The position numbers were made by a program, and so were the translations under genes. DNA of 64,000 nt from Aquamicrobium aerolatum DSM 21857 (GTDB lineage Bacteria; Pseudomonadota; Alphaproteobacteria; Rhizobiales; Rhizobiaceae): NCBI RefSeq assembly GCF_900113935.1, contig NZ_FORF01000001.1, positions 1 to 64,000 of the forward strand, in the 5' to 3' direction. The stretch's first letter is position 1. Each line of letters begins with the position of its first letter. The notes beneath the pieces were generated by a model that saw only the letters and a list, made by a program, of their open reading frames with translations, ran no database searches and was not told where the DNA came from. This document shows positions 2,588 through 18,665 of this stretch, piece after piece.

Positions 2588-3129
2588 CGCGCCGCCGCAC
2601 CCTCACGGTGACGGCGCTCGCCGTCCTCGGCATCGCCGCCGCCAGCGCCGTCGATTGGCCTTTGAGGCTCATCTGGAACGCCACGGCCAGCGCGCCCATC
2701 GGCTTCTACACCGTCGAGCCGGCCGACGCGCTCGACGTGCCCGAGCTGGTCGCCGTCATGCTGCCCGAACCGCTCGCCGCCTCCATGGTCGAGCGCGGCT
2801 ATATCGCGCGCGGCGTCCCGCTCTTGAAGCGCGTCTTGGGCCTGCCGGGGCAGCAGGTTTGCCGCTTGCGATCCACGATCACGATGAACGGGATCGAGAT
2901 GGGCGAGGCGCTGGAGCGTGACAGCCTCAGCCGCGATCTGCCCGTCTGGCAGGGCTGCCGTGTCATCGGCGACGGCCAGCTTTTCCTCATGAATTGGGAA
3001 GTCCGCGACAGCCTCGACGGCCGCTATTTCGGACCCATCCCCGCAGCTTCCGTCATCGGCCGAGCGGTCCCGCTCTGGACCGATGAGGAAGGCGTCGGCC
3101 GCTACGAGTGGCGCGCGCCGACGCACTGA
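2584..3129 (+). CDS. traF: TraF-type S26 family signal peptidase
   Basis: A 181-residue membrane-anchored serine protease. It has an N-terminal hydrophobic helix (residues about 7-23), the catalytic Ser region SAPIGFYTV (Ser36) and the catalytic Lys in LLKRVLGLPG (Lys82), followed by the family box containing NWEVRDSLDGRYFGPIP. In RP4 the TraF homologue matures and cyclises the TrbC pilin, and the same substrate (TrbC, 18042-18374) is present here. The start overlaps the DUF2840 stop (ATGA); an upstream in-frame start at 2557 is less likely. Confidence 0.85.
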   Translation: MTRRRTLTVTALAVLGIAAASAVDWPLRLIWNATASAPIGFYTVEPADALDVPELVAVMLPEPLAASMVERGYIARGVPLLKRVLGLPGQQVCRLRSTITMNGIEMGEALERDSLSRDLPVWQGCRVIGDGQLFLMNWEVRDSLDGRYFGPIPAASVIGRAVPLWTDEEGVGRYEWRAPTH

Positions 3130-3164
3130 AACCATCCCCGAAAGCCAATCACAGGAGATTTTCC

Positions 3165-3500
3165 ATGGCAGAAATAGGCACCTTCACCCGCACCGAAATC
3201 GGCTATGCCGGAGAGCTTCATTCGTTCGGCCTCCACGAAAAGCTGTTCATCGTCCCGGCCAAGCCGAGCGACATGAAAAACGCGCCCGACTATCGCCTGC
3301 GCCTCGATAGCGAGGACGGCCCGGACGCTGGCCCCGCATGGAAAGACTCCAGCGAAAATGCCGGCGACTTCGTGTCGATGAGACTGGAGGGACCGATCTT
3401 CCCGTTCCCGATCCGCGCCAAGCTGTTCCAGTCCAACGACGATCTTTCGGTCTGGACGCTGCGTTGGAAACACCCCCGGAAAGTCGAGGACGAGGAATGA
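3165..3500 (+). CDS. DUF736 family protein
   Basis: A 111-residue protein beginning MAEIGTFTRTEIGYAGELHS, characteristic of the DUF736 family found on Agrobacterium/Rhizobium plasmids and ICEs between traF and virD2-like genes. AGGAG lies 8 bp before ATG 3165. The function is unknown. The terminal codons overlap the next gene (ATG 3497, stop 3498-3500), so it forms part of the same transcriptional unit running towards the relaxase. Confidence 0.8.
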   Translation: MAEIGTFTRTEIGYAGELHSFGLHEKLFIVPAKPSDMKNAPDYRLRLDSEDGPDAGPAWKDSSENAGDFVSMRLEGPIFPFPIRAKLFQSNDDLSVWTLRWKHPRKVEDEE

Positions 3501-4429
3501 CGGCCGCGCGCGTCCGGCCCGCCATCCGGTTCAAGATCGTCATCCCTTTGTTCGCGGAAAAGCCGTCTCATCCCTTCGTCCCGCTCTGCGACCAGACGGC
3601 CGGCGCGCATAGCGAAGGTCAGGGGCGGCCATCGGCCGGCGCTTGCGCCTTGCCCTTGACCGCAGCGAGCACGCTGGCAGGCTGGTGTCGAAGCGGAGAC
3701 AGGACTGCATGGCATTATGCCGTGCTGATACTGGCCGGTGCGCTTTCCGTTTGCGCCGGATCGGGCGTCGCGGTCGCGCAATCCGCGCCCGTCGAGCGCC
3801 CGGCCGCCGCCCATCCCTATGCGGCTCACATCGCCGAGGCGTCGCAGCGTTTCGGCATACCTGAGCATTGGATCGTCGCGGTGCTACGCGCCGAGAGCGC
3901 GGGCGACGTGCGCGCGGTCTCAACGGCCGGCGCGACGGGATTGATGCAGGTGATGCCCGACACATGGGCGGGCCTGCGCGTCCGCTACGGCCTCGGCCGC
4001 GATCCCTACGACCCGCGCGACAACATCCTCGCAGGCACGGCCTACCTGCGCGAAATGTTAGACCGCTACGGCAATGTTGCGGCGATGCTGGCGGCGTACA
4101 ATGCCGGCCCCGGCCGATACGATGAATATCTAGCGACCGGCCGGACCCTGCCGGCCGAGACGCGGGCCTATATCGCCGCGCTCGCGCCGATCCTCGGCGG
4201 CGCGACTTCAACCGAAGCGCCGTCATCGGCACCGCCACCGCCGCCAGATTGGCGCGAAGCACCGCTGTTCGTTATGCATCCGGGCGATGCACGGGCTGTC
4301 GCCGCGCCGCCGTCCGACGCACGATCCGGCGACGGCCGCGCGACCGTTCCGGCGCGCGATGCCGTCGATGCAAAGTCGCAGGGCGACGGCATTTTCGTCG
4401 CCGACGCAAGCGGTTCGGAAACGCCATGA
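3497..4429 (+). CDS. Lytic transglycosylase (SLT domain), conjugation-associated
   Basis: A 310-residue protein with a hydrophobic segment at about 72-95 acting as signal anchor, then an SLT fold at about 110-220. The catalytic glutamate is in VLRAESAGD (Glu133). Other landmarks are STAGATGLMQVMPDTW and MLAAYNAGPGRYDEYLATGR. The tail is Pro/Ala-rich. Such VirB1-like enzymes open peptidoglycan locally for the mating apparatus. ATG 3497 overlaps the DUF736 stop. The unusually long region before the hydrophobic segment leaves the true start open to doubt. Confidence 0.85.
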   Translation: MTAARVRPAIRFKIVIPLFAEKPSHPFVPLCDQTAGAHSEGQGRPSAGACALPLTAASTLAGWCRSGDRTAWHYAVLILAGALSVCAGSGVAVAQSAPVERPAAAHPYAAHIAEASQRFGIPEHWIVAVLRAESAGDVRAVSTAGATGLMQVMPDTWAGLRVRYGLGRDPYDPRDNILAGTAYLREMLDRYGNVAAMLAAYNAGPGRYDEYLATGRTLPAETRAYIAALAPILGGATSTEAPSSAPPPPPDWREAPLFVMHPGDARAVAAPPSDARSGDGRATVPARDAVDAKSQGDGIFVADASGSETP

Positions 4430-4736: not shown

Positions 4737-6797
4737 GTGCCCTTGAGCGCCGACGACGAAAACCGCTTCCGTCCGAAGCCCGGCCGCATCCGATCCGACA
4801 CGCCGAAGGCCGGCAAGACCAAGAGCTTTTTCACGCAGGTCAGGAAGATCACCCGCCAGCATCAGGCGGCAGCCTCACGCGATCCTTCCATGCCGTCATC
4901 CGCGCGCCCGTCATCGCCGGGGCGGTCTCGCGCCATGGCCGCCAGCGGCAAGGGCGTGAAGCGCGGCCGGGGCGCGAGCTTCGTGCGCGCCCGGAACATA
5001 TCCGGCAACTGGCATCATCGCCAGCCGGGCAGCCGCCGCGTGATCGTCAAGCAGCGCAGCGTCCGGGCCGCATGGAAGGGCGGCCGTGCCCGCGCGCATC
5101 TGCGCTATGTCCAGCGTGACGGAACCTCGCGCGACGGCGAACGCGGCCAGCTCTATTCGGCGCATGAAGACCGCGCCGATGGCGACGCCTTCCTTGATCG
5201 TGGTCAGGATGACCGCCATCAATTCAGATTCATCGTCTCGCCCGAGGATGGCGCGGAGCTGTCGGACCTCACGGCCTACACCCGCGATTTCATGAAACAG
5301 GTGGAAGGCGACCTCGGCACGAAGCTGGATTGGGTTGCCGTCAATCACTACAACACCGGCCATCCCCATGTGCATGTCATCGTCAACGGCCGCGATGATA
5401 CGGGCGGGGATCTAGTCATCAACGGCGACTATCTCGCCAACGGCCTGCGCGAGCGCGCCAGCGAGCTTGCCAGTCTGGAACTCGGCCCCGTTACCGAGAT
5501 TGAGCAGACCCGCAAGCTGTCCGCCGAAATCGACCAGGACCGTTTCGCCCGCATCGATCGCGCCATGGCCGAGGAAGCCGATGCCCGTTTCGTCGACCTG
5601 CGCCACGAGCCGGCAGCGCCGAGGCGGCAGTTCGAGCGAACGCTACGCCTGCGCAGGCTCGCCAAGCTGGAGAAGATGGGGCTGGCGACCGAGCACGCGC
5701 CCGGTGTTTGGGAATTGAGCAAGGACATGGAACCGGTCTTGCGCGAGTTGGGCGAGCGGGGCGACATTATCCGCACCATGCACAAGGCGCTTGGGCCGCA
5801 GGGCGGCGAACGCGATCCCATGAGCTTCCAAATCCATGACGGAGCGCCCGAGACGCCCATCGTCGGCCGCGTCGTGGACAAGCACCTGTCCGACGAGCTG
5901 GGCGAGAACCTGACAATCGTGGTGGACGGGATCGACGGCCGCACACACCACATTGCCGGCATCGCGCCCGAGCGGCTGGAGGACGCCCGCATCGGCAGTG
6001 TCGTCCAGATCGGCCCGGCCGAGGCGGCAGCCCGACCGTCCGACCGCAGCATCACCGCCATCGCCGAGGACGGCATCTATCGGCCGAGCCGTCATCTGGA
6101 GCAGGCGAAATTCGAGGGCCGCGTTCCCGGCGGCGACTATGAGGGCTATATCGATGCCCATGTCCGGCGGCTGGAGGCGCTGCGCCGGGCCGGCATCGTC
6201 GAGCGCATCGACGCCGACCAATGGCGCATCCCAGATGATCTGGTCAGCCACGCGGCTGATTACGATGCCGGCCGCGACCGGCAGGCCAGCGTTCGCGTGC
6301 TTTCCCCGGTTGATCTGCAAAGGCAGATACGTTCGGACGGCGCGACATGGCTGGACCGGCGATTGGTCCATGGCGAAACGGCCGACCTTGCGCCGACCGG
6401 CTTCGGGCAACAGGTCCGCGAAGCCATGGACCAGCGCCGCGAGCATCATATCGAACAGCGCGACGCTACGCGCAACAGGGACGGCCGCATCTTCTACCGG
6501 CGCAATCTTCTCGCCACCCTGCGCGAGCGGGAAGTTGCGCGCGCCGGTGCGGAGATGGCCGAGGGCAAGGCGCTGCCGTTCCGCGCCGCCAAGGATGGTG
6601 AGAGTGTCAGCGGCAAGTTCACCGGGACTGTCCAGCTAACGAGCGGCAAGTTCGCCATCGTGGAAAAGAGCCACGAGTTCACCCTTGTCCCGTGGCGGCC
6701 GATCATCGACCGCCAGCTCGGCCGCGAGGTCGCGGGTATCATGCAGGGCGGTTCGGTGTCGTGGCAGTTAGGGCGGCAGCGGGGGTTGGGGCTATAG
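4737..6797 (+). CDS. VirD2-like relaxase/mobilization nuclease (DUF3363)
   Basis: A 686-residue relaxase that would nick oriT and pilot the strand into the recipient. The N-terminal part (about 75-260) is the relaxase domain, with the metal-binding histidine cluster HYNTGHPHVHVIVNG near residues 203-217. The C-terminal half matches the DUF3363 type, ending LVPWRPIIDRQLGREVAGIM and a QLGRQRG tail. It starts with GTG 4737. The last 38 codons are matched by a diverged second copy at 8325-8438, after floR. Confidence 0.9.
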   Translation: MPLSADDENRFRPKPGRIRSDTPKAGKTKSFFTQVRKITRQHQAAASRDPSMPSSARPSSPGRSRAMAASGKGVKRGRGASFVRARNISGNWHHRQPGSRRVIVKQRSVRAAWKGGRARAHLRYVQRDGTSRDGERGQLYSAHEDRADGDAFLDRGQDDRHQFRFIVSPEDGAELSDLTAYTRDFMKQVEGDLGTKLDWVAVNHYNTGHPHVHVIVNGRDDTGGDLVINGDYLANGLRERASELASLELGPVTEIEQTRKLSAEIDQDRFARIDRAMAEEADARFVDLRHEPAAPRRQFERTLRLRRLAKLEKMGLATEHAPGVWELSKDMEPVLRELGERGDIIRTMHKALGPQGGERDPMSFQIHDGAPETPIVGRVVDKHLSDELGENLTIVVDGIDGRTHHIAGIAPERLEDARIGSVVQIGPAEAAARPSDRSITAIAEDGIYRPSRHLEQAKFEGRVPGGDYEGYIDAHVRRLEALRRAGIVERIDADQWRIPDDLVSHAADYDAGRDRQASVRVLSPVDLQRQIRSDGATWLDRRLVHGETADLAPTGFGQQVREAMDQRREHHIEQRDATRNRDGRIFYRRNLLATLREREVARAGAEMAEGKALPFRAAKDGESVSGKFTGTVQLTSGKFAIVEKSHEFTLVPWRPIIDRQLGREVAGIMQGGSVSWQLGRQRGLGL

Positions 6798-6878
6798 GAG
6801 CCAACGATACCGCATTGCAACGCAACAAATAATTCGATAAGAGCTGCTATTCAATTTCGTAATCGTGGAGCCATCAGC

Positions 6879-6908
6879 ATGGGAAATTCCAAGTCAGCAG
6901 ACAAGTAA
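6879..6908 (+). CDS. floR leader peptide (attenuator), MGNSKSADK
   Basis: A nine-codon ORF, MGNSKSADK then TAA, with TGGAG about 8 bp upstream. It closely resembles the cmlA leader peptide (MSTSKNADK) used for phenicol-inducible translational attenuation. The stop codon is immediately followed by a 9-bp stem-loop (6909-6936). Ribosome stalling on this peptide would be expected to alter the downstream hairpin and expose the floR start. The similarity is seen directly; inducibility here is inferred. Confidence 0.7.
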   Translation: MGNSKSADK

Positions 6909-6936
6909 GCCGCAACATCAGAATTGTTGTTGCGGC
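6909..6936 (+). promoter_or_regulatory. Attenuator stem-loop upstream of floR
   Basis: GCCGCAACA (6909-6917) pairs perfectly with TGTTGCGGC (6928-6936), starting at the base after the leader-peptide stop. A weaker second pairing, GACGA near 6967 with TCGTC at 7009-7013 next to the floR ATG, could mask the floR start region. This is the arrangement expected for drug-induced translational attenuation. Confidence 0.6.
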
Positions 6937-7013
6937 GCTCTGTAAGACCAATCCCATCTGATTGCTGACGAGCAGACGCTGCCCGGTATCCTTAATCGAG
7001 CGGTTGATTCGTC

Positions 7014-8228
7014 ATGACCACCACACGCCCCGCGTGGGCCTATACGCTGCCGGCAGCCTTGCTGCTTATGGCTCCCTTCGACATCCTCGCGTCGCTGGCG
7101 ATGGATATTTATCTTCCAGTCGTTCCGGCGATGCCGGGCGTCCTGAACACGACTCCATCCATAATCCAACTCACGTTGAGCTTCTACATGGTGATGCTCG
7201 GTGTGGGCCAAGTGATCTTTGGGCCACTCTCCGATCGCGTCGGGCGACGGCCGATCCTGCTTGTAGGCGCAACGGCTTTCGTTGCTGCGTCTCTGGGAGC
7301 GGCTTGTTCTTCAACTGCATTAGCCTTTGTTGCGTTTCGTCTGGTTCAAGCAGTTGGAGCATCGGCCATGCTGGTGGCCACCTTCGCGACCGTGCGCGAC
7401 GTATATGCCAATCGTCCCGAAGGTGCCGTCATCTACGGCCTTTTCAGTTCGATGCTGGCGTTCGTGCCTGCGCTCGGCCCTATAGCCGGTGCGCTGATCG
7501 GCGAGTTTTGGGGATGGCAGGCGATCTTCATCACACTGGCTGCACTGGCTTCGCTCGCACTCTTAAACGCCAGTTTCAGGTGGCATGAAACCCGACCGTT
7601 GGATCAGGCCAGAACGCAACGATCTGTTTTGCCGATCTTCGCGAGTCCGGCCTTTTGGGTTTACACAGGCGGATTTAGTGCCGGCATGGGCACATTCTTC
7701 GTTTTCTTCTCGACAGCCCCCCGTGTTCTCATAGGCCAAGCCGGCTATTCCGAGATCGGATTTAGCTTGGCCTTCGCGACTGTCGCGCTGGTCATGGTCA
7801 CGACAACCCGCTTCGCAAAGTCCTTCGTTGCCAAATGGGGTATCGCGGGATGCGTAGCGCGCGGGATGGCGTTGCTCGTTTCCGGCGCGATCCTGTTGGG
7901 GATCGGCCAACTTTTCGGATCGCCGTCATTTTTCAGCTTCATCCTGCCGATGTGGGTTGTCGCGGTCGGCATTGTCTTCACGGTGTCCGTTACCGCCAAC
8001 GGCGCACTTGCGCAGTTCGACGACATCGCTGGATCAGCGGTTGCGTTCTACTTCTGCATCCAAAGCCTGATAGTCAGTATCGTCGGGACATTGGCGGTGA
8101 CGCTGTTAAACGGCGATACAGCGTGGCCCGTGATTTGTTACGCCACGGCAATGGCAGTGCTGGTGTCGTTGGGGCTGGCGCTCCTTCGATCCCGTGATGC
8201 TGCCACCGAGAAGTCGCCAGTCGTCTAG
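7014..8228 (+). CDS. floR: Florfenicol/chloramphenicol efflux MFS transporter FloR (variant)
   Basis: A 404-residue major-facilitator drug exporter of the Bcr/CflA type, with 12 hydrophobic segments and the loop motif GPLSDRVGRRP. The whole length matches remembered FloR: it starts MTTTRPAWAYTLPAALLLMA and ends RDAATEKSPVV. Scattered substitutions relative to that sequence make it a diverged allele rather than the common one. Expected role: proton-driven export of florfenicol and chloramphenicol at the inner membrane. It is preceded by a leader peptide and hairpin and flanked on both sides by relaxase 3' ends. Confidence 0.93.
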   Translation: MTTTRPAWAYTLPAALLLMAPFDILASLAMDIYLPVVPAMPGVLNTTPSIIQLTLSFYMVMLGVGQVIFGPLSDRVGRRPILLVGATAFVAASLGAACSSTALAFVAFRLVQAVGASAMLVATFATVRDVYANRPEGAVIYGLFSSMLAFVPALGPIAGALIGEFWGWQAIFITLAALASLALLNASFRWHETRPLDQARTQRSVLPIFASPAFWVYTGGFSAGMGTFFVFFSTAPRVLIGQAGYSEIGFSLAFATVALVMVTTTRFAKSFVAKWGIAGCVARGMALLVSGAILLGIGQLFGSPSFFSFILPMWVVAVGIVFTVSVTANGALAQFDDIAGSAVAFYFCIQSLIVSIVGTLAVTLLNGDTAWPVICYATAMAVLVSLGLALLRSRDAATEKSPVV

Positions 8229-8324
8229 CCGACGACTGGAAGCAAGCCCGCTCCGATGCGGCGCAATAATCATCGAAACCTTGTGAATGGCGGTATCCTG
8301 TCCGGCAAGATACCGCTCATTTCC

Positions 8325-8438
8325 CTTGTCCCGTGGCGGCCGGTCATCGACCGCCAGCTCGGCCGTGAGGTCATCGGCATCGTGCAAAGCGGATCGGTGT
8401 CGTGGCAGTTGGGGCGGCAAAGGGGCATAAGCCTCTAA
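8325..8438 (+). pseudogene. Second relaxase 3' end (remnant, last 37 codons)
   Basis: The frame reading LVPWRPVIDRQLGREVIGIV through a QLGRQRG tail to TAA 8436-8438 repeats the C-terminus of the relaxase at 6684-6797 with clear nucleotide divergence (roughly four of five bases alike by eye). Homology starts abruptly near 8325, and no start codon or relaxase domain precedes it. The last bases overlap the tetR stop on the other strand. It is a fragment of a related but different relaxase gene, marking a recombination seam. Confidence 0.85.
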
Positions 8439-9061
8439 TCTGTTGTAGATGAACGCAGCCGCTCGAAACCAGCGATGAGGCTGTCGAGTCCGAAGTTGAA
8501 CGCAGCATCCATGCCGTCTGTTTCCAACTCGTGAAACAGATCGTGCAGGAAGGACGACGGTGCTTGCTCGGACACATCTGGCCTGTCCGGAACTCTCTCA
8601 TCGGCATCAGATGCCTGCTGCTCGAGAACGGAACCGACCACATAGTGACTGACCGCCCGGAGCGCCCAAACAGCGTGCTTCGGACCAAAGCCCGCCGCGC
8701 AGAGAAAGCGTATTTGTGTCTCGGCAGCGCCAAAATTCGGTTCTGTCGGTCGAGTGCCGGCATGGATGCGCGCCCCGTCGCGATAATAGAGCAACGCCGT
8801 TCTGAAACTCTGGGCGTTCTCTTTCAGGAATAGCCGCCAGTCTTCGTTCTCTTCGGGTAGCGAGCGGGTGTGGCGTTCCGTCAGCATTGCCTCGGCCAGT
8901 GCGTCAAGCAGCGCGCGCTTGTTCTGGAAATGCCAGTAAAGCGCAGGCTGCTGAACCTTGAGGCGTTCAGCGAGCTTTCGCGTCGTCAGGTTGTCCATGC
9001 CAACCTCGTTCAGCAGCTCCAGCGCCGCTGCGATCACGGTGCCCTTGTCCAGTTTGGTCAT
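8435..9061 (-). CDS. tetR: Tetracycline repressor TetR, class G
   Basis: A 208-residue TetR-family repressor starting MTKLDKGTVIAAALELLNEV. The helix-turn-helix is at about 25-45 (LTTRKLAERLKVQQPALYWH), and the C-terminal domain is of the tetracycline-binding type. It is transcribed divergently from tet(G), with two palindromic operators in the gap between them. Without drug it should shut both promoters; tetracycline-Mg binding releases it. The sequence agrees with remembered TetR(G). Its stop overlaps the end of the relaxase remnant. Confidence 0.92.
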   Translation of the reverse strand: MTKLDKGTVIAAALELLNEVGMDNLTTRKLAERLKVQQPALYWHFQNKRALLDALAEAMLTERHTRSLPEENEDWRLFLKENAQSFRTALLYYRDGARIHAGTRPTEPNFGAAETQIRFLCAAGFGPKHAVWALRAVSHYVVGSVLEQQASDADERVPDRPDVSEQAPSSFLHDLFHELETDGMDAAFNFGLDSLIAGFERLRSSTTD

Positions 9062-9081
9062 TCACGTTCCTTCGCCAACGC

Positions 9082-9132
9082 TTGACAATTTATCACCGAT
9101 AAGTTCTATGTCCATGTCCTTATCATTGATAA
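9082..9132. promoter_or_regulatory. tetR/tet(G) divergent promoter with two tet operators
   Basis: Two palindromes of the tet operator type: TTATCACCGATAA (9090-9102) and TTATCATTGATAA (9120-9132). Towards tet(G), TTGACA (9082-9087) with TTCTAT (9104-9109) at 16-bp spacing forms a good sigma-70 promoter that overlaps the first operator. Repressor binding would therefore block it directly. The tetR promoter must run the other way through the same operators. Confidence 0.8.
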
Positions 9133-9165
9133 AGTCGCTCGCATTGAGCGGCGCTGGAGTTTCAG

Positions 9166-10341
9166 GTGCGCAGCTCTGCCATCATCGCCCTGCTGATCGT
9201 CAGTCTCGACGCCATGGGACTCGGCCTCATCATGCCGGTCCTTCCGACGCTTCTGCGCGAGCTTGTGCCGGCGGAGCAGGTCGCTGGTCACTATGGTGCT
9301 TTGCTGTCACTCTATGCGTTGATGCAGGTCATCTTCGCGCCCGTGCTTGGACAATTTTCAGATGCTTACGGTCGGCGTCCGGTGCTTCTGGCTTCCCTTG
9401 CGGGGGCCGCAGTCGATTACACGATTATGGCATCAGCGCCGGTCTTATGGGTGCTCTATATCGGCCGGCTCGTCTCCGGCATCACGGGCGCAACCGGAGC
9501 TGTAGCTGCCTCAACCATTGCGGATTCGACGGGGGAAGGTTCTCGCGCACGCTGGTTCGGCTACATGGGGGCCTGTTATGGGGCAGGCATGATTGCCGGG
9601 CCAGCACTTGGTGGTATGCTCGGTGGTATTTCTGCCCATGCTCCGTTTATCGCCGCTGCCCTTCTCAACGGCTTCGCGTTCCTGCTAGCCTGCATTTTCC
9701 TCAGGGAGACTCGTCGCGGCGATGGCGAGACCGGAAAGCCGGTTCGCATCAAACCATTCGTTCTGTTCCGGCTGGATGATGCATTGCGCGGGCTAGTGGC
9801 CCTTTTCGCAGTTTTCTTCATTATTCAACTGATCGGCCAGGTCCCTGCGGCCCTATGGGTCATATATGGCGAGGATCGTTTTCAGTGGAACACCACGACC
9901 GTTGGCTTGTCGCTCGCGGCGTTTGGAGCAACACACGCGATTTTTCAGGCGTTTGTTACCGGCCCTCTTTCAAGCCGGCTTGGAGAACGGCGCACGCTAC
10001 TGTTTGGCATGGCTGCGGATGCGACTGGCTTCATTCTTCTGGCTTTTGCCACGCAGGGATGGATGGTGTTCCCGATTTTGTTGCTGCTTGCCGCCGGAGG
10101 TGTTGGCATGCCGGCCTTGCAGGCAATGCTTTCAAACAATGTCAGCAGTAACAAGCAAGGAGCTTTACAGGGAACGCTTACAAGCCTCACCAATCTAAGC
10201 TCTATCGCGGGACCGCTTGGCTTCACGGCACTCTATTCTGCCACCGTAGGAGCATGGAACGGTTGGGTTTGGATTTTCGGCGCGATCCTCTATTTAATAT
10301 GTCTGCCAATACTACGCAGACCTTTCGCAACTTCATTGTGA
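9166..10341 (+). CDS. tet(G): Tetracycline efflux protein Tet(G) (MFS, variant)
   Basis: A 391-residue tetracycline/H+ antiporter of the major facilitator family, with 12 hydrophobic segments. It begins MRSSAIIALLIVSLDAMGLG, has the loop motif GQFSDAYGRRPVLL and ends LPILRRPFATSL, matching remembered TetA(G) with scattered substitutions. The start is GTG 9166. It is controlled by the adjacent TetR. Expected role: energy-dependent export of the tetracycline-Mg complex. The gene is followed directly by a LysR gene. Confidence 0.93.
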   Translation: MRSSAIIALLIVSLDAMGLGLIMPVLPTLLRELVPAEQVAGHYGALLSLYALMQVIFAPVLGQFSDAYGRRPVLLASLAGAAVDYTIMASAPVLWVLYIGRLVSGITGATGAVAASTIADSTGEGSRARWFGYMGACYGAGMIAGPALGGMLGGISAHAPFIAAALLNGFAFLLACIFLRETRRGDGETGKPVRIKPFVLFRLDDALRGLVALFAVFFIIQLIGQVPAALWVIYGEDRFQWNTTTVGLSLAAFGATHAIFQAFVTGPLSSRLGERRTLLFGMAADATGFILLAFATQGWMVFPILLLLAAGGVGMPALQAMLSNNVSSNKQGALQGTLTSLTNLSSIAGPLGFTALYSATVGAWNGWVWIFGAILYLICLPILRRPFATSL

Positions 10342-10430
10342 TTGAGTCATGGCGAATTGGTATGCGTAGACTTACGAGAAATGACGGATTAAATCCGTTG
10401 AGCAATCATCTCCTTTCGGGGCGAGTGCCA

Positions 10431-11348
10431 ATGATGACCTTAGTTCACACTCTCGCTGTCGCCGAATATCTCAACTTCCGTCACGCCGCCAATGCGCTCG
10501 GCGTTGCACAGTCCAGCGTCAGCGCCCGCGTGAAGGCACTGGAAGAAGACCTCGGCATCCTCTTGTTCGAGCGTCATGCACGCGGCGTTCGGCTGACCGA
10601 GGCCGGACGCCATTTCGTCGAGCGGATAGCCGTAGGTATTGACCAACTCGACCATGCGGTGAAAACCGCCGGCATGGCGGCAGCCGGAGAAAGCGGCCGG
10701 CTTCGTATCGGTATCCATGCCCTGATTCCGCATAGCTTCCTCGCAAAGCTGATCGGCCAATACCGCAAGGATCACCCCGATGTTGAAGTCGAGATCGCCG
10801 AAGGCCCGGCCCGTGAAGCGGTGGTGCAGCTTCGCGCCGGCAGGTTGGACGTGGCGTTCGTCGCGGGCACGCCCCAACCACCCGACTGCCATTCCCGTCG
10901 CACATGGACCGAACCGCTCTTGGCGGTGCTACCGGAACGGCATCCGCTCGCCAAGCGGTCAGCCGTCACATGGCCCGATCTGGCAGGCGAGACGTTCCTT
11001 GTCCGGCATGGCGGCACTGGACCGCAGGTTCATAGCCATATCATGCTACGCCATGCCGAGCGCTGGCCTGCGCCGTCGATCCTGCGCTTCGACGTGGGGC
11101 GTGGCACCCTTTTGTCCTTGGTCGGACAGGGCTTCGGCATCACCATCGTCGGCGCGGCCACGGCGCTGTTGCCGACAAACGGCATTGTCTTCTTGCCCTT
11201 CGCCGACGAGCCGGAGCCGGTCGCCTTCTCGGCTGTCTGGTCGCCGTCCAACCGCAGCGCGGCGCTTCGTAACCTGCTCAGCCTCGCCAACGACATGGGC
11301 CGGCAGGTCTGCACGAATTCAGTACTGCCACGGATAGCGAGGGCGTGA
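10431..11348 (+). CDS. LysR-family regulator, copy 1 (downstream of tet(G))
   Basis: A 305-residue LysR regulator. The N-terminal winged helix includes NFRHAANALGVAQSSVSARV and LEEDLGILLFERHARGVRL; an effector-binding domain starts near residue 90. ATG 10431 (or 10434) is chosen because homology with copy 2 begins at TLAVAEYLNF; the longer frame upstream only overlaps tet(G). It is highly similar over nearly its whole length to 13355-14314, diverging after LLSLAND. Copy 2 lies next to traG, so this copy probably arrived with a neighbouring cargo. Confidence 0.85.
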   Translation: MMTLVHTLAVAEYLNFRHAANALGVAQSSVSARVKALEEDLGILLFERHARGVRLTEAGRHFVERIAVGIDQLDHAVKTAGMAAAGESGRLRIGIHALIPHSFLAKLIGQYRKDHPDVEVEIAEGPAREAVVQLRAGRLDVAFVAGTPQPPDCHSRRTWTEPLLAVLPERHPLAKRSAVTWPDLAGETFLVRHGGTGPQVHSHIMLRHAERWPAPSILRFDVGRGTLLSLVGQGFGITIVGAATALLPTNGIVFLPFADEPEPVAFSAVWSPSNRSAALRNLLSLANDMGRQVCTNSVLPRIARA

Positions 11349-11382
11349 GCCGAAGTGGTCGCGGAAGCACCGTCCGGGACTG

Positions 11383-12645
11383 TTATTGCCATCGCCGGAA
11401 AGCGACACTTGCATTAACGCCGCCAAAGCCGAATCCGTTGGAAATGGCATGTTCCATGAGAACAGGCCGTGCAGATTGGCGAACCAGATCGATACCTACG
11501 GCAATAGGATCGGGGCTCTCCAAATTTCTCGTTGGGGGAGCGATTTGATCCCGTAAGGCGAGTATCGTGAAGATCGCCTCAATGCCGCCAGCGGCACCGA
11601 GTAAGTGCCCCGTCGCTGACTTCGTGGCGCTTACAGCTACATCATGATCGCCAAAAACGGATTTTATCGCGGCTATTTCTCCTCGATCCCCTACGGGGGT
11701 GGAGGTTGAATGAGCGTTCAGATGTTGAACATCGTTGGGCTTCAAACCGGCACTTTGTAGCGCGATTTTCATTGCACGGGCCGCGCCTCGACCGTCCTCT
11801 GGACCGGCAGTCACATGGTGTGCATCAGCGCTTGTGCCGTATCCTACCAATTCGGCTATGGGTTTGGCACCCCGAGCAAGGGCATGTTCCAATTCTTCTA
11901 TGACGATCAGACCCGCCCCTTCGGACATTACGAAACCATCGCGCTCGGTGTCGAACGGCCTTGACGCCATTTCAGGTGTAGTATTGTAGCCGGTAGATAG
12001 TGCTCGCGCGGCAGCAAATGCCCCGAGACTAACCTTGTCAATGCACGCTTCTGCTCCACCGCACAGAGCGATATCGGCTTCGTTGGAGCGTATCAGCCGC
12101 GCGGCGTCTCCGATGGCCTGAACGCTCGCAGCGCAGGCGGTTACAGGCGTGCCAATTGGGCCTGTAAATCCATGCCTGATGGTAACGTGTCCTGCTGCAA
12201 GGTTGGCAAGAAACGACGGCACGGTAAACGGTGAGAGCCTCCGTGCTCCCCGTGTATCCGTTATGCGAACTGCCGAAGCGATAGCAGGAAACCCGCCTAT
12301 ACCAGAGGCGATAATTGTCGCCGTGCGCTCACGTTCGTAGTCGCTCGTGGGATGCCATCCTGCCGTTTCAAGAGCCTCCTTCGCGGCCGCAAGTGCAAAC
12401 AGAATGAAGCGATCCATTTTTCGTTGATCCTTTGTGTCAACGATTAAATCTGGATCAAAACCGGCTTCGGAATCTTCAATCAGGCTGGGAACGATTCCCC
12501 CGATTTTCACCGGTAGATCATTGGAGATTTCATCAGGCAAATTCCTGATTCCCGATTTCCCGTCGAGGAGTCTTTTCCAGCTTATTTCAGTGCCAGAACC
12601 AAGGGGGCCAACTAAACCCATGCCGGTTACAACAATTCGGCGCAT
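11383..12645 (-). CDS. fabF: Beta-ketoacyl-ACP synthase II (FabF-like), ICE-borne
   Basis: A 420-residue condensing enzyme that would extend acyl-ACP with malonyl-ACP in fatty-acid synthesis. The thiolase-fold catalytic triad is intact: Cys171 in VTACAASVQ, His312 in HLNAHSTSTPVGD and His347 in SATGHLLGAAGG. It is the second gene of a unit with hxlR, only 4 bp apart. Base composition is visibly less GC-rich than that of the trb genes, pointing to a foreign source. A fabF copy on a resistance-carrying ICE could be a drug-tolerant replacement of the chromosomal enzyme, but that is a hypothesis. Confidence 0.9.
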   Translation of the reverse strand: MRRIVVTGMGLVGPLGSGTEISWKRLLDGKSGIRNLPDEISNDLPVKIGGIVPSLIEDSEAGFDPDLIVDTKDQRKMDRFILFALAAAKEALETAGWHPTSDYERERTATIIASGIGGFPAIASAVRITDTRGARRLSPFTVPSFLANLAAGHVTIRHGFTGPIGTPVTACAASVQAIGDAARLIRSNEADIALCGGAEACIDKVSLGAFAAARALSTGYNTTPEMASRPFDTERDGFVMSEGAGLIVIEELEHALARGAKPIAELVGYGTSADAHHVTAGPEDGRGAARAMKIALQSAGLKPNDVQHLNAHSTSTPVGDRGEIAAIKSVFGDHDVAVSATKSATGHLLGAAGGIEAIFTILALRDQIAPPTRNLESPDPIAVGIDLVRQSARPVLMEHAISNGFGFGGVNASVAFRRWQ

Positions 12646-12649
12646 TGGA

Positions 12650-13159
12650 TTATTCCGTTTCTTTTTCTGAGCTTATTCGCTTCATGCGATTTATGACGCG
12701 CATCGTTTCCTCTGTTGCGGCGGGGCCTGCCAGAAGAACGGTGTTTTCGGGAGTGATTGCTTCTCCTGTATTCGCGTCGATGATAACGGCGGTCCTCTCC
12801 TGTCCGGTTTTCTTGTCACCAAGGCGCATGGCTATTTCATTGGGCGCAAGGTTCCGGTTCCCCCATGCGAACAGGGCGATTGCTACCGGATAGAAATCTC
12901 GCCCCTTGTCGGTAAGGACGTATTCAAATCGAGGCGGATGATCATTGTATCGTTGCCTTTCAAACAGTCCTTCCGCCGTGAGATGCTTCAATCGCCTCGC
13001 CAAAATGTTCGCGGAAATACCGAGATTCTTCTCGAATTCATCGAATTTGCTAAGCCCTTGGAAGGCGTCTCGCAGGATCAGGATGCTCCACCAGTCACCG
13101 ACGCTTTCCAGCGCTCGGGCTGCGGGACACTCGAATGACAGAAAGCTTGTTCGTTGCAT
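12650..13159 (-). CDS. HxlR-family transcriptional regulator
   Basis: A 169-residue protein with an HxlR/MarR-like winged helix at about 10-100: CPAARALESVGDWWSILILR, then NLGISANILARRLKHL and a wing at PPRFEYVLTDKG. A C-terminal extension of about 60 residues follows the usual domain. It precedes fabF in the same operon and probably controls it. ATG 13159 has only a weak GGA upstream; promoter-like elements are placed so close that the message may be nearly leaderless. Confidence 0.85.
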   Translation of the reverse strand: MQRTSFLSFECPAARALESVGDWWSILILRDAFQGLSKFDEFEKNLGISANILARRLKHLTAEGLFERQRYNDHPPRFEYVLTDKGRDFYPVAIALFAWGNRNLAPNEIAMRLGDKKTGQERTAVIIDANTGEAITPENTVLLAGPAATEETMRVINRMKRISSEKETE

Positions 13160-13198
13160 GACACATCCATAATGGTGTAACTTCCATCATGCAAGTCA
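13157..13198 (-). promoter_or_regulatory. Promoter and inverted repeat before hxlR-fabF
   Basis: On the minus strand, TTGCAT, 17 bp, then TATGGA sits immediately before ATG 13159, so transcription may begin at or next to the start codon. A widely spaced palindrome TGCATGA (13155-13161) and TCATGCA (13187-13193) frames the promoter and could be an operator for the HxlR product. Both assignments are by eye. Confidence 0.4.
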
Positions 13199-13354
13199 CT
13201 TATGCGCAGTAGGCGACATAGTAGGAGGGGTAATCCAATGCGTCATTCTAAGGGAGCCAAGCACCTGCGTCTGCTACGGCGTGGAACAAAGCACTGTAGT
13301 GGCATTTGAGCGATGCGGCGGCGATCAGCACCGATGGATGGTTGCCCATGGGGT

Positions 13355-14314
13355 ATGCCGACCACGCTCGGATCGCGTATCCCCCTCGCATCGCTGATCC
13401 AGACACTCGCCGTCGCCGAATATCTGAACTTCCGCCACGCCGCCAATGCGCTCGGCGTGGCGCAATCCAGCGTCAGCGCCCGCGTGAAGGCGCTGGAAGA
13501 AGACCTTGGTATCCTTCTGTTCGAGCGTCACGCGCGCGGCGTCCGACTGACCGAGGCCGGACACCACTTCGTCGAGCGGATAGCGGCCGGCGTCGATCAA
13601 CTGGACCATGCAGTGAAGACCGCCGGCATGGCGGCAGCGGGAGAAAGCGGCCGGCTTCGTATCGGTATCCATGCCCTGATCCCGCACAGCTTCCTCGCAA
13701 AGCTGATCGGCCAATACCGCGAGGACCATCCCGGCGTTGAAGTCGAGATGACGGAAGGGACAGCTCGCGAAGCGGTGATGCAGCTTCGCGCCGACCGGCT
13801 GGACGTGGTGTTTGTCGCGGGCACGCCCGAGCTGCCAGACTGCCACACCCACCCGATCTGGACCGAACAGTTGGTTGCCGTGCTGCCGGATGGGCATCCA
13901 CTCGCCGGGCAGTCGGCCGTCACATGGGCCGATCTGGCCGGCGAGACGTTTCTTGTCCGGCATGGCGGCACAGGTCCGCAGGTTCATAGCCATATCGTGC
14001 TGCGCCATGCCGGGCGCTGGCCCGCGCCGTCAATCCTGCGCTTCGACGTGGGGCGTGGCGCGCTGCTGTCCATGGTCGGACAGGGCTTCGGCATCACCAT
14101 CGTCGGAGCAGCTACGGCGCTGCTGCCCACGTCCGGCATCGTCTTCCTGCCTTTCGCCGATGAGCCAGAGCCGGTTGCGTTCACCGCCGTCTGGTCGCCG
14201 TTCAATCGCAGCGCCACCCTGAAAAACCTGCTCAACCTTGCAAACAATATGAGGCGTTGCGGCGATTCGCCCGGCCAGTTGCGCAGCGGCGATCACCCGG
14301 CCGGATGGCGGTGA
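13355..14314 (+). CDS. LysR-family regulator, copy 2 (upstream of traG)
   Basis: About 319 residues, with the same LysR helix-turn-helix (NFRHAANALGVAQSSVSARV) and effector domain as copy 1 at 10431-11348; the two differ by scattered substitutions. It lies just before traG in the same direction, the position a LysR gene is expected to occupy in this ICE class, so I regard it as the resident copy. The start is uncertain: ATG 13355 is preceded by GGGG, while ATG 13313 would add 14 residues. It may control transfer genes. Confidence 0.8.
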   Translation: MPTTLGSRIPLASLIQTLAVAEYLNFRHAANALGVAQSSVSARVKALEEDLGILLFERHARGVRLTEAGHHFVERIAAGVDQLDHAVKTAGMAAAGESGRLRIGIHALIPHSFLAKLIGQYREDHPGVEVEMTEGTAREAVMQLRADRLDVVFVAGTPELPDCHTHPIWTEQLVAVLPDGHPLAGQSAVTWADLAGETFLVRHGGTGPQVHSHIVLRHAGRWPAPSILRFDVGRGALLSMVGQGFGITIVGAATALLPTSGIVFLPFADEPEPVAFTAVWSPFNRSATLKNLLNLANNMRRCGDSPGQLRSGDHPAGWR

Positions 14315-14438
14315 ACGCAACCCGTCCTATTTGCCGCCGATAGTATCCGGTAGCCCTCCCGCACCCCCTTTCCTGTTGCCTGTCCGGTTTTGCCTACTCT
14401 CTGATCGGCTCCGTTTCTTTTGCCGACTGGAGCCTGCA

Positions 14439-16424
14439 TTGCGCGGAGGCCGAATCCTTTGGGGTCAAATCGCTGTCGTCTTCACCATCGTTCTGGTGAT
14501 GGTGTGGGCAGCGACGCAATGGACGGCGTTCCGCCTCCGCTTCCAGCTCCAGCTTGGCAATCCGTGGTTCGAGCTGGCGGGCTGGCCGGTCTATTATCCG
14601 CCGGCCTTCTTCTGGTGGTGGTTTTCGTTTGACGCCTATGCGCCCGCAATCTTCGTCGAAGGTGCCATCATCGCGGCGTCCGGCGGTTTCATCGCCATCG
14701 CCGCCGCCATCCTCATGTCGATCATCCGGGCACGGGAGGCGCGCAACGTCGCCACCTATGGTTCGGCGCGATGGGCGGAGGATCGCGAAATCCGCGCCGC
14801 CGGTCTGCTCGGCCCCGATGGCGTGGTGCTCGGCAGATACGACCGGCACTATCTGCGCCATGACGGGCCGGAGCATGTGTTGTGCTTCGCCCCGACTCGC
14901 AGCGGCAAAGGTGTCGGGCTGGTGGTACCGACGCTGCTGACATGGCCGGGAAGCTGCATTGTCCACGACATCAAGGGCGAGAACTGGACTCTGACGGCCG
15001 GCTTTCGCGCCCAGCATGGCCGCGTCCTGCTGTTCGATCCCACGAACGCCAGATCGTCCGCCTACAATCCGCTGCTCGAAGTGCGGCAGGGGGAATGGGA
15101 AGTCCGCGACGTGCAGAACATCGCGGATATTCTGGTCGATCCCGAAGGCAGTCTCGACAAGCGCAACCATTGGGAAAAGACCAGCCATTCGCTGCTGGTC
15201 GGCGCGATCCTGCATGTTCTCTATGCGGAGAAGGACAAGACCTTGGCGGGCGTCGCCAACTTCCTGTCCGATCCCCGCCGTCCGGTCGAGGCGACCTTGC
15301 GCGCCATGATGGATACGCCGCATCTCGGCGAGGCGGGCGTTCATCCCGTCATCGCGTCGTCGGCCCGCGAGCTGTTGAACAAATCCGAGAACGAACGGTC
15401 GGGCGTGCTCTCCACCGCCATGTCGTTTCTCGGCCTCTACCGCGATCCCGTGGTGGCGCGGGTGACGGCGCGATGCGACTGGCGCATTGCCGATCTGGTC
15501 GGCAGCCGCCAGCCCGTCACGCTCTACCTTGTCGTGCCGCCGTCCGACATAAACCGCACAAAGCCGCTTATCCGCCTGATCCTCAACCAGATCGGCAGGC
15601 GGTTGACCGAGGAATTGACCACCTCCGGCAAGCGCCATCGGCTGCTATTGATGCTGGACGAGTTTCCGGCGCTCGGCCGGCTCGATTTCTTTGAATCGGC
15701 GCTCGCCTTCATGGCGGGCTACGGAATCAAAGGCTTCCTGATCGCGCAGAGCCTCAACCAGATCGAGCGCGCCTATGGCCCGAACAACGCGATCCTCGAC
15801 AACTGCCACGTCCGCGTCAGCTTCGCCACGAACGACGAAAGGACGGCGAAGCGTGTTTCAGACGCATTAGGCACGGCGACCGAGCTGCGCGACTCCACCA
15901 ACTACGCAGGGCACCGCCTAGCCCCGTGGTTAGGTCACTTGATGGTGTCGCGGCAGGAGACGGCCCGGCCGCTGCTCACGCCGGGCGAAATCATGCAGCT
16001 TCCACCCACCGACGAAATCGTCATGGTCGCGGGCACGCCGCCGATCCGCGCCATCAAGGCGCGCTATTTCGAGGATGCGCGATTGCAGGAACGCATCCTG
16101 ACCCCGCCCGATCTGGTCGCCGCTCCGCTGGCGCCCAGCCCATCCGCCGATGATTGGTCCGGCCGCGTGGTCGCGGCGGAAAGCCGTTCCGCGACGTGCG
16201 GAAGCGAGGCCGAAGGCGATCCGGCCAATGCGGGCATCCGCCGCGAGCCGGAATTGCCCGAGCATGAGGAAATCGTCGCCCCGCCGCCATCCCCCGAACA
16301 GGAGTTCGAGTTTCTGGACGACGAGCCGGACGTTGACGCGGCCAAGGCCCGTGCCATGCGCCAGCGCATGAGGATGGTGGCGCGGCAGGTGGCGATGAAC
16401 CCCGATGATGGAATCGACCTTTGA
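14439..16424 (+). CDS. traG: Type IV coupling protein TraG/VirD4
   Basis: About 661 residues; an inner-membrane ATPase that hands the relaxase-DNA complex to the Trb channel. N-terminal membrane helices are at about 8-30 and 60-95, with Walker A in FAPTRSGKGVGLVVPT and Walker B in LLLMLDEFPALGRL. The C-terminal tail is acidic and Pro-rich, as often used for substrate docking. I chose TTG 14439 (GGAG 7 bp upstream) because conserved sequence starts at RGGRILWGQI; TTG 14331 is an alternative in the same frame. Confidence 0.92.
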   Translation: MRGGRILWGQIAVVFTIVLVMVWAATQWTAFRLRFQLQLGNPWFELAGWPVYYPPAFFWWWFSFDAYAPAIFVEGAIIAASGGFIAIAAAILMSIIRAREARNVATYGSARWAEDREIRAAGLLGPDGVVLGRYDRHYLRHDGPEHVLCFAPTRSGKGVGLVVPTLLTWPGSCIVHDIKGENWTLTAGFRAQHGRVLLFDPTNARSSAYNPLLEVRQGEWEVRDVQNIADILVDPEGSLDKRNHWEKTSHSLLVGAILHVLYAEKDKTLAGVANFLSDPRRPVEATLRAMMDTPHLGEAGVHPVIASSARELLNKSENERSGVLSTAMSFLGLYRDPVVARVTARCDWRIADLVGSRQPVTLYLVVPPSDINRTKPLIRLILNQIGRRLTEELTTSGKRHRLLLMLDEFPALGRLDFFESALAFMAGYGIKGFLIAQSLNQIERAYGPNNAILDNCHVRVSFATNDERTAKRVSDALGTATELRDSTNYAGHRLAPWLGHLMVSRQETARPLLTPGEIMQLPPTDEIVMVAGTPPIRAIKARYFEDARLQERILTPPDLVAAPLAPSPSADDWSGRVVAAESRSATCGSEAEGDPANAGIRREPELPEHEEIVAPPPSPEQEFEFLDDEPDVDAAKARAMRQRMRMVARQVAMNPDDGIDL

Positions 16425-17061: not shown

Positions 17062-18045
17062 ATGACCACCAACCACCAAAGACCGGAAGCCATTGCGCGC
17101 GGCGCACGCATGTTGCGCACCGCGCTCGGCCCCGCCATTGCCCGGCTGCTCGAAGACCCGGCCGTGGTCGAGGTGATGTTGAACCCGGACGGGCGGTTGT
17201 GGATCGACCGCCTGTCCGAAGGGCTTTCCGATACGGGCGAGCGCCTGTCCGCCGCCGATGGCGAACGCATCGTTCGGCTGGTCGCGCATCATGTCGGCGC
17301 GGAGGTTCATGCCCGCAGCCCGCGCATCTCGGCCGAGCTGCCGGAGTCTGGCGAAAGATTCGAGGGCCTGCTGCCACCCGTGGTCGCCGCCCCGACCTTC
17401 GCCATCCGCAAGCCCGCCGTCGCCGTGTTCAGCCTCGACGACTATGTGGCGGCGGGGATCATGTCCACCGATCAGGCCGCGACGTTACGCGCGGCCGTTT
17501 CCTCCCGCGCAAATATCCTCGTGGCGGGCGGCACCAGCACCGGCAAGACCACGCTGACCAATGCGCTGCTCGCCGAGGTGGCGAAGACGGCGGATCGCGT
17601 CGTCATCATCGAGGATACGCGCGAGCTGCAATGCGCCGCGCCCAATCTAGTGGCGATGCGGACGAAAGACGGCGTGGCGACGCTTTCCGATCTGGTGCGT
17701 TCCTCGCTGCGCCTGCGCCCCGACCGCATCCCCATCGGCGAGGTGCGCGGATCGGAAGCCCTCGACCTCCTGAAAGCGTGGGGAACGGGACACCCCGGCG
17801 GCATCGGCACCATCCATGCAGGCACCGGCATCGGTGCGCTCCGTCGCCTTGAACAGCTCATCCAAGAGGCTGTCGTCACCGTCCCGCGCGCCCTGATCGC
17901 CGAGACAATCGACCTTGTTGCTGTCCTTTCCGGGCGCGGTTCCGCGCGCCGGCTTGCCGAGCTTGCCCGCGTCGAAGGGCTGGGGCCGGACGGCGACTAC
18001 CGCATCACCCCCGCAATCCAAACCAGCACAGGAGAATCTTCATGA
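17062..18045 (+). CDS. trbB: TrbB, conjugal transfer ATPase (VirB11 family)
   Basis: A 327-residue hexameric secretion ATPase of the VirB11 family, cytoplasmic, powering pilus biogenesis and translocation. Seen: N-terminal domain with [19 protein letters not shown], Walker [10 protein letters not shown] near residue 156, the Asp box [13 protein letters not shown], Walker B region [12 protein letters not shown] and His box [13 protein letters not shown]. It opens the trb operon after a 147-bp gap and overlaps trbC in ATGA. Confidence 0.95.
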
Positions 18046-18374
18046 TCCGCACGATTTCGCGCGGCTATCGCTTCGCCGCGACCGCCGCATCCACCCTTGC
18101 TATCAGCTTCATGCTCGCCCCGGCCGCCCATGCGTCGGGATCGTCGATGCCGTGGGAGCAACCGCTTCAGCAAATCCTTCAGTCCATTGAGGGACCCGTC
18201 GCAAAAATTATCGCGGTGATAATTATCATCGCCACCGGCCTGACCCTCGCGTTCGGGGACACCAGCGGCGGCTTTCGCCGTCTGATCCAGATCGTGTTCG
18301 GCCTGTCGATTGCTTTCGCCGCGTCGAGCTTCTTCCTGTCGTTCTTCTCGTTCGGCGGCGGGGCGCTCGTTTGA
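18042..18374 (+). CDS. trbC: TrbC, conjugative pilin precursor
   Basis: A 110-residue VirB2/TrbC pilin. It has a signal peptide ending near AAHASGS, followed by a mature part with two hydrophobic helices (KIIAVIIIIATGLTLAFGDT and SIAFAASSFFLSFFSFGGGA). The TraF-like protease of this ICE (2584-3129) is the expected processing and cyclising enzyme. It overlaps trbB and trbD starts by four and one bases. Confidence 0.92.
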   Translation: MIRTISRGYRFAATAASTLAISFMLAPAAHASGSSMPWEQPLQQILQSIEGPVAKIIAVIIIIATGLTLAFGDTSGGFRRLIQIVFGLSIAFAASSFFLSFFSFGGGALV

Positions 18375-18655
18375 TGGCCGTCGCGTTCGAGCAACTGGAC
18401 GCCGTGCCGGGCTTCACGGTCCCGGTTCACCGGGCGCTGACCGAACATATCCTGCTCGGCGGCGCTCCGCGCGCCATCGCCATCATGAACGGAACGCTGG
18501 CCGGAGCCGTGGGCCTCGGCCTGCGCCTCTGGCTGATCGGCATCGCCATCTGGGCAATCGGCCACTTCGCGGCCGTATGGGCGGCAAAGCGCGATCCCCT
18601 CTTTGTCGAGGTCGGGCGGCGGCATCTCCGCATCCCCGGTCATTTGGCGGTTTGA
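18374..18655 (+). CDS. trbD: TrbD, VirB3-like inner-membrane protein
   Basis: A 93-residue protein with hydrophobic stretches around APRAIAIMNGTLAGAVGLGL and LWLIGIAIWAIGHFAAVWAA, followed by AAKRDPLFVEVGRRHLR, the VirB3/TrbD hallmark. It is part of the inner-membrane platform that works with TrbE. The start ATG 18374 shares its A with the trbC stop. Confidence 0.9.
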   Translation: MAVAFEQLDAVPGFTVPVHRALTEHILLGGAPRAIAIMNGTLAGAVGLGLRLWLIGIAIWAIGHFAAVWAAKRDPLFVEVGRRHLRIPGHLAV

Positions 18656-18665
18656 GGGTGCAGCC

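Follow-up and report, generated by a model that had tools for sequence, protein, structure and literature searches.

How did three sets of cargo genes, two of them antibiotic-resistance pumps, come to be stacked between the relaxase gene and traG of a predicted self-transfer element? The question is raised by a stretch of 64,000 nt from Aquamicrobium aerolatum DSM 21857 (NZ_FORF01000001.1, positions 1 to 64,000; here 'the window'), which opens at the edge of a contig; 4.7 kb in lies the relaxase gene of a putative integrative and conjugative element (ICE). We refer to the interval from the relaxase gene (R) to traG as the 'slot', and to the loci of relatives by labels such as L057. Comparison with these relatives suggests, with a probability that we estimate at roughly 0.72, that the slot comprises three cargo units which were brought together by illegitimate slot fusions and were then exchanged by homologous recombination within the relaxase end and lysR. 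The evidence, all of it at the level of sequence, consists in the unit structure, the occurrence of single and stacked versions, the scars and their foreign lineage, the breakpoints of exchange, and the absence of those transposon and integron parts that were tested.

The left wall of the slot is R, which encodes a full-length relaxase with a DUF3363 and a MobA/VirD2-like domain (4737-6797, + strand), and the right wall is traG for the coupling protein of a type IV secretion system (14331-16424, +; Pfam and NCBIfam). Unit 1 holds floR for a florfenicol/chloramphenicol efflux pump (7014-8228, +), preceded by a leader (6798-7013) that is, at 216 bp, the longest gene-free stretch in the slot. There follow a stacking joint, CCCTTGT (8323-8329, +), and a scar, R', consisting of a relaxase 3' end from another ICE lineage (8323-8438, +). 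Unit 2 consists of tetR(G) (8435-9061, - strand), the tetracycline pump gene tet(G) (9166-10341, +) and a closing lysR, L1 (10422-11348, +; the mechanically called open reading frame, ORF, starts at 10254). Beyond a second joint, which comparison with relatives places from the lysR stop to the flank of fabF (11343-11360, +), unit 3 consists of fabF for beta-ketoacyl-acyl carrier protein synthase II (11383-12645, -), a gene for an HxlR-family regulator (12650-13159, -) and a closing lysR, L2 (13355-14314, +; mechanical ORF from 13313), which ends 16 bp before the traG ORF. Across the slot region Pfam identifies DUF3363 plus a relaxase domain, two MFS pumps, TetR, LysR twice, beta-ketoacyl synthase, HxlR and TraG, and the matching genes are called FloR, TetR(G), Tet(G) and FabF in plasmid records. 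The fabF unit (11383-13159) is an ICE cargo antisense to its lysR and beside an HxlR regulator, and fabF is possibly a spare drug target.

An earlier note on this DNA had pointed to diverged copies of the relaxase 3' end around floR and of lysR around fabF-hxlR, and both duplications are borne out. A repeat search and alignments yield for the relaxase end the pair 6682-6784 and 8323-8425 (87% identity over 103 nt, gap-free; 82.8% when aligned over the 116 nt of the scar), and for lysR the pair 10446-10745 and 13400-13699 (89% over 300 nt), L1 and L2 being 84.7% identical as proteins. The repeats are not due to chance, because each copy corresponds to an identifiable gene, complete or as its 3' end, and because the same arrangement is found in relatives. 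The region 6600-8500 has a single match in the strain's own 3.64-Mb genome, all segments compared with the slot of Brevundimonas naejangsanensis L082 match at 99.5-100% identity, and the genes of Shinella daejeonensis L083 are 98.6-100% identical up to the end of its contig.

Relatives were gathered by relaxase similarity and comprise 17 + 26 stretches from family searches, 80 named loci (the best-scoring 80 of 498) and seven plasmid or E. coli records, which covers kin of about 72% relaxase identity or more; close matches that were partial or lay at contig ends (G171:C35, G333:C2, G303:C15 and G366:C24) were left out of the survey, as were the more distant matches of the first family search. 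A relaxase end is present at 126 loci, and 93 of these have traG on the same contig; the other 33 were not counted. Merging of exactly identical slots only, so that near-copies remain, reduced the 93 loci to 76 distinct slots. These were classified as empty (13-694 bp from relaxase to traG) or occupied (at least 1350 bp), and a lysR was assigned to the family if at least 45% identical as protein; distances in the slots are based on extrapolated traG starts, and gene orientations on a simple ORF caller.

The scar R' matches the native relaxase end of Devosia faecipullorum L096 at 98.3% identity and the window's own R at 82.8%, and L096, an ICE whose first unit is the tet unit, matches R' at all informative sites. 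L1 and L2 likewise each have closer relatives elsewhere than the other copy. These observations are in accord with the earlier note's view that the relaxase ends stem from different ICE lineages, and they render it most improbable that the repeats arose by local duplication of relaxase end and lysR within the ICE, an explanation that would fit their being direct repeats on the same strand; for the relaxase end, the lineage comparison contradicts it.

Comparison of slots then shows that the units occur both singly and in stacks, two lysR copies, whole or fragmentary, being present in 20 of the 58 occupied slots. The floR-lysR unit is the sole unit in Brucella gallinifaecis L107 (R-floR-lysR-traG), the first of two in L057, the second of two in L056/L095, and the second in Pseudomonas paraeruginosa L005. 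A TetR-rlmN-lysR unit is found alone in L059 and as the first of two in L056/L095, with 99.4% identity of the cargo and 91.8% of the relaxases; an MFS534-lysR unit is found alone in L140 and as the second in L041, with 92.7% identity of the cargo and 77.7% of the relaxases. The TetR-rlmN(-like radical SAM)-lysR unit (L056, L059, L095, L006) represents a mobile cargo in its own right, being 99-100% identical in several hosts and a Rhodobacter plasmid. Stacks containing the units of the window form nested arrays, that is, tet-fab, floR-tet-fab and GNAT-floR-tet-fab.

The joints bear on how the units came together. In the window, floR is succeeded by the opening bases of a lysR that has otherwise been lost; these merge into a relaxase end at CCCTTGT, a sequence found both in the relaxase gene and at the beginning of the lysR downstream of floR in other units of this kind. 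The unbroken floR-lysR side of this joint is preserved in L057 and L008 and the unbroken relaxase side in L096 (CTTGT, 5 bp in common), and unit 1, the lysR of which is missing from the window, has likely lost it. L005 (with two), L057, the L039 type and the window all have joints of this kind, from lysR to a relaxase end, which differ in position and share 0-7 bp; manual reading gives 5-7 bp for the window, 5 bp for L041, and 0-1 bp for L005 and L057. The first joint of L005 consists of a lysR stop, a few bases and then a relaxase end, the second occurs after 0.3 kb of lysR, and in L057 13 bases separate a lysR stop from a decayed relaxase end. Between the tet lysR and fabF, a decayed relaxase-end scar is kept in L002, L039, L043 and L096, and has been lost at the corresponding position (11343-11360) in the window, L040 and L042. 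In L041, a 154-nt lysR fragment continues into DNA whose counterpart in L140 is found immediately beyond the relaxase stop. L129, from an Acetobacteraceae member, contains two further relaxase-end matches in its occupied slot (14157-14390 and 17798-17881).

The earlier note had proposed that homologous recombination within the relaxase and lysR genes alone stacked the three cargoes. This agrees with the different lineages of the duplicates and with clear crossovers in the relaxase end and lysR, so that the part of the proposal that invokes homologous recombination in these genes stands, with crossovers in the relaxase 3' third and in lysR. A crossover in either gene swaps units, however, and cannot join the end of a lysR to the middle of a relaxase gene, as has happened in the window, L005, L057 and the L039 type. 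These joints, at differing places and with 0-7 bp shared, look illegitimate, and we consider homologous recombination an unlikely sole cause of the stack.

ISCR2, ISCR3 and IS1247 flank plasmid copies of the units. That an ISCR-type or other one-ended transposase inserted every unit in the slot and has since disappeared is nonetheless very unlikely: (i) according to Pfam, none of the nine slot proteins has a transposase or integrase domain; (ii) seven insertion sequence (IS) and integron segments, taken from relatives and searched against the window at E<=1e-5, yield no match, the best hit in the slot being 17 bp with an E value of 0.006; and (iii) the ICE units sit between a whole relaxase gene and traG, while the plasmid copies (L007, L008 and L162) are cut down. 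An ISCR element adjoins the unit at these three loci and none does in the window, and no IS or integron part was found at the unit borders among those tested, a set that included neither an attC model nor a full IS library. An origin by the tested IS/integron elements is rejected on the basis of the domain and segment searches of the window, and the earlier note's view that no transposase or integron is needed agrees with both.

The reading that we favour is illegitimate fusion of slots. A second ICE of the family would enter, or reside in, the same cell; homology would hold one edge of its slot, and the other edge would be joined where little or no sequence is shared, that is, by homology-facilitated illegitimate recombination; in the product, the relaxase 3' end of one unit would adjoin the lysR of the unit before it. 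Deletion would subsequently erode the scars and any surplus lysR copies, and selection for cargo together with this decay would do the rest. Equally, a deletion could have fused two tandem ICEs; this is not separable from one-step joining, and the fusion reading as stated above covers both. As a distinct history, in which a deletion from the lysR end of a first ICE to the relaxase end of a second left one ICE with both cargoes, we regard it as possible, if rather less probable. It gives the same product, and two relaxase matches are present in 11 of the 36 genomes with any (two candidates were scored per genome, and some matches are partial). Kaistia adipata carries two such ICEs, L088 and L095, with different stacks, within the first 85 kb of NZ_AUHO01000007.1; they are, however, oppositely oriented, and no head-to-tail pair was seen, though none was searched for.

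The second step of the fusion reading, exchange of units by homologous recombination inside the relaxase end and lysR, would swap units between ICE lineages and is suggested by changes of identity. The Fisher p values given here are not corrected for the choice of breakpoint. Against L040, the window exhibits crossovers at ~6416 in the relaxase gene and ~13830 in L2 (p 6e-10 and 8e-28): the segments from ~6416 to 13830 are 97-100% identical (L1 lowest, 96.8%), while identity outside this part is 84-92%, the relaxase gene, with its change at ~6416, being 92.2% identical and the 3' half of lysR and traG 84-91%. With L039, the window has floR and its flanks in common, with breakpoints at ~6049 and ~8671. 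With L096, only 4 positions differ over 8350-11199, and divergence returns in the 3' end of lysR from ~11250; the common segment from 8324 to ~11250 has the 5-7 bp joint as its left edge and a change of identity inside lysR as its right edge, a pattern of one homologous edge and one short joint that later exchanges could mimic. The relaxase ends of L042, L058 and L097 are of the scar type at the first informative site, of their own type at the next nine, and of the scar type onward. The duplicated ends thus behave as seams at which units are exchanged and the first unit is possibly lost. A polarity in which new units always arrive beside the relaxase gene, considered in view of the nested arrays, is not claimed, since the apparent crossovers between relaxase and scar in L042, L058 and L097 could equally be losses of floR.

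Several observations weigh against the fusion reading. No stacking event itself was observed. Homology-facilitated illegitimate recombination in conjugation is documented but rare, having been measured at 3e-10 per recipient (PMC3240628). Two of the joints share almost no sequence, and the original breakpoints are uncertain because the joints have been trimmed. The window joint and the second joint of L005 may descend from one older joint. The scars of L005 (twice), L057 and the window (region 6682-6712) all start within ~20 bp, at or just before GGCGGCCGGTCATCGACCGCC, a sequence that could form a small hairpin, and these near-identical starts may reflect shared ancestry or a hot spot; a hot spot near 6682-6692 is not claimed, since two of the scars starting there probably share ancestry. 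No relaxase-end scar is present in L041, nor was one seen in the printed stretches of L066 and L135, and the rlmN-floR stack of L056 shows, after the lysR stop and ~75 bases, only a weak relaxase-end trace of 15-20 bases. Single-cargo relatives, which the earlier note had foreseen for each unit, exist for floR (L107), whereas neither tet(G) alone nor fabF-hxlR alone was found in the 76 slots with traG, the two always occurring together. As regards the association of lysR with cargo, the window's fabF-hxlR is transcribed away from its own lysR; L065 is a 9.2-kb occupied slot with cargo and without lysR; L109, from the window's own relaxase clade, has lysR and no cargo ORF of at least 90 amino acids; and all 31 slots of that clade are occupied, so that the evidence for joint gain of lysR and cargo comes from the rest of the family.

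In the family at large this association is close. All 18 empty slots among the 76 lack a lysR of the family, while 57 of the 58 occupied slots contain one, L065 being the exception, and the last lysR match ends 10-173 bp upstream of traG save in L077 (679 bp) and L081 (915 bp). When the empty state is mapped on a tree of the relaxases of these 76 slots, it requires 9 changes, 6 of them forced by well-supported branches. Since empty slots lack lysR and occupied ones have it, cargo and lysR were gained or lost together across the family, which suggests that lysR comes with the cargo and is not a fixed part of the element. The earlier note's view of lysR as a core gene is at odds with its absence from 18 of 18 empty slots, though it would describe the window's own relaxase clade, in which 31 of 31 slots are occupied and have lysR. 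The gene preceding an intact lysR has the same orientation in 42 of 52 distinct cases and in 35 lies at most 200 bp from the lysR match. Among 30 cargo proteins picked from slot ORFs, 13 are linked to transport (MFS, EamA, ArsP, outer-membrane efflux); the others picked include methyltransferases, hydrolases, a radical SAM protein, an ABC ATPase, a beta-lactamase-fold protein and regulators. L051 and L089 are single units the cargo of which includes a LuxR-type autoinducer-binding regulator. The same arrangement is seen on plasmid 1 of Ketogulonicigenium vulgare (L163), with a DUF3363 gene, sugar-metabolism genes, a related lysR (56%), traG and trb genes.

The gene order relates the element to known ICEs. 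Upstream of the slot, the ICE backbone contains genes for a TraF-type peptidase (2557-3129, +) and a lytic transglycosylase (3338-4429, +), both matched by NCBIfam below cut-off, in an order (2557-4429) similar to that of a relative on a Phaeobacter plasmid; downstream of traG lie the mating-pair genes trbB, trbC, trbE and trbJ (17062-21928, +; NCBIfam, trbC below cut-off). According to PMC11448139, the order relaxase-cargo-LysR gene-traG-trb is that of Tn4371-family beta/gamma ICEs with traR, such as ICEKKS102Tn4677, in which traR, a LysR gene at the same place, is co-transcribed with the cargo and activates transfer. The cargo here is, as in that family, mostly transcribed towards the LysR gene; the likeness established is one of gene order. 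In the window, too, the LysR gene lies between cargo and traG on the same strand. By analogy, the units may end in lysR because a TraR-like regulator co-transcribed with the cargo would link cargo expression to ICE transfer. In contrast to the beta/gamma ICEs, the units here are stacked with relaxase-end scars and have empty relatives without lysR, and the hosts of the best 80 of 498 loci are Alphaproteobacteria, save for the halomonad L139.

Alphaproteobacterial hosts and empty slots, e.g. L047, are features shared with the alpha-I and alpha-II ICEs of the same source, a likeness that carries no type assignment. These types are described there as being without cargo and traR at this place, the legend of Fig. 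8 marking a differently located traR (PMC11448139). The 18 of 18 empty slots without lysR fit this description, but the window does not, and 58 of the 76 sampled slots have cargo and 57 have lysR. The relatives thus show the gene order of the Tn4371 family, yet in alphaproteobacterial hosts with cargo and lysR at this place. L053 and L067 possess a reversed LysR gene ~12-14 kb past the traG start that is 48-53% like L2, a candidate for the traR of alpha-type ICEs, and L067 has a lysR in its slot as well. Of the slots with enough DNA beyond trb, five are occupied and five empty, and one in each group has such a gene; the other 66 slots are too short.

Two further systems bear comparison. A Tn4371-like ICE of P. 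aeruginosa TL1285 carries floR-T1-tetR-tetA-lysR in its variable traF-traR region, and relaxase-end scars or a unit structure are not described in the sections consulted (PMC8256890). Modules added at a conserved anchor are also known from the orphan immunity-gene arrays of Vibrio type VI secretion systems, which PMC5361080 ascribes to something akin to homology-facilitated illegitimate recombination; the genes differ, however, and old effectors are displaced there, while the units here persist and end in a regulator gene. In the literature consulted, neither the stack-with-scars structure nor its link to the enteric floR unit is stated.

This link emerges from E. coli records. The floR-R'-tetR-tet(G)-lysR-ISCR3 segment of plasmid L007 has the same gene set and order as the slot and is 97.1% identical to window positions 6349-11001, the scar included. 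This segment resembles complex integrons such as In104. The enteric arrangement ISCR2-relaxase piece-floR-lysR piece (L008) is colinear with L057 at 94.7%, and on the IncC plasmid p39R861-4 (L162, 2233-7778) floR lies with a relaxase piece, a complete lysR and the greater part of traG in a 5.5-kb stretch colinear with the single-unit ICE L107 (86.1%) and, up to lysR, with L057 (93.9%); ISCR2-end sequence adjoins both of its edges, making it a larger version of the usual ISCR2-floR unit. That unit, ISCR2-virD2-floR-lysR, has the same genes in the same order, its DUF3363 piece named 'virD2' being the 3' part of a relaxase gene (PMC6885840). Unlike these ISCR2 and ISCR3 units, which are pieces cut out beside an ISCR element, the ICE has a whole relaxase gene and traG, and no IS was found in it. 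Their colinearity identifies ISCR2-virD2-floR-lysR and floR-tet(G)-lysR-ISCR3, the two enteric modules, as fragments of such ICE slots, although the exact ICE donor is absent from our sample. In the literature consulted, including passages of PMC7438884, PMC10269605 and PMC13393415, there is no statement that the floR unit derives from an ICE slot.

What the slot means for this family of elements may be considered at two levels. It is tempting to speculate, with a confidence that falls somewhat short of even odds, that the relaxase-traG gap of alphaproteobacterial Tn4371-like ICEs functions as a cassette system devoid of a recombinase, in which (i) each cassette would be a small cargo operon closed by a TraR-like lysR, (ii) addition by illegitimate fusion of whole slots would leave a relaxase-end scar, (iii) scars and lysR copies would then serve as seams for exchange and loss, and (iv) the enteric floR and floR-tet(G) modules would have been assembled by this system before ISCR elements cut them out. 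The relaxase-end scars constitute a readable record of acquisitions, near relatives of both parents being known for some joints. At the level of the enteric modules, the slot explains why floR is bordered by a 'virD2' piece and a lysR piece, the former being the end of the left wall and the latter coming from the gene that closes the unit. Window positions 6500-8500 are matched in 950 of 5426 complete E. coli genomes, in 942 of them over at least 80% of the length, and environmental Alphaproteobacteria are therefore a plausible assembly ground for a clinically common module.

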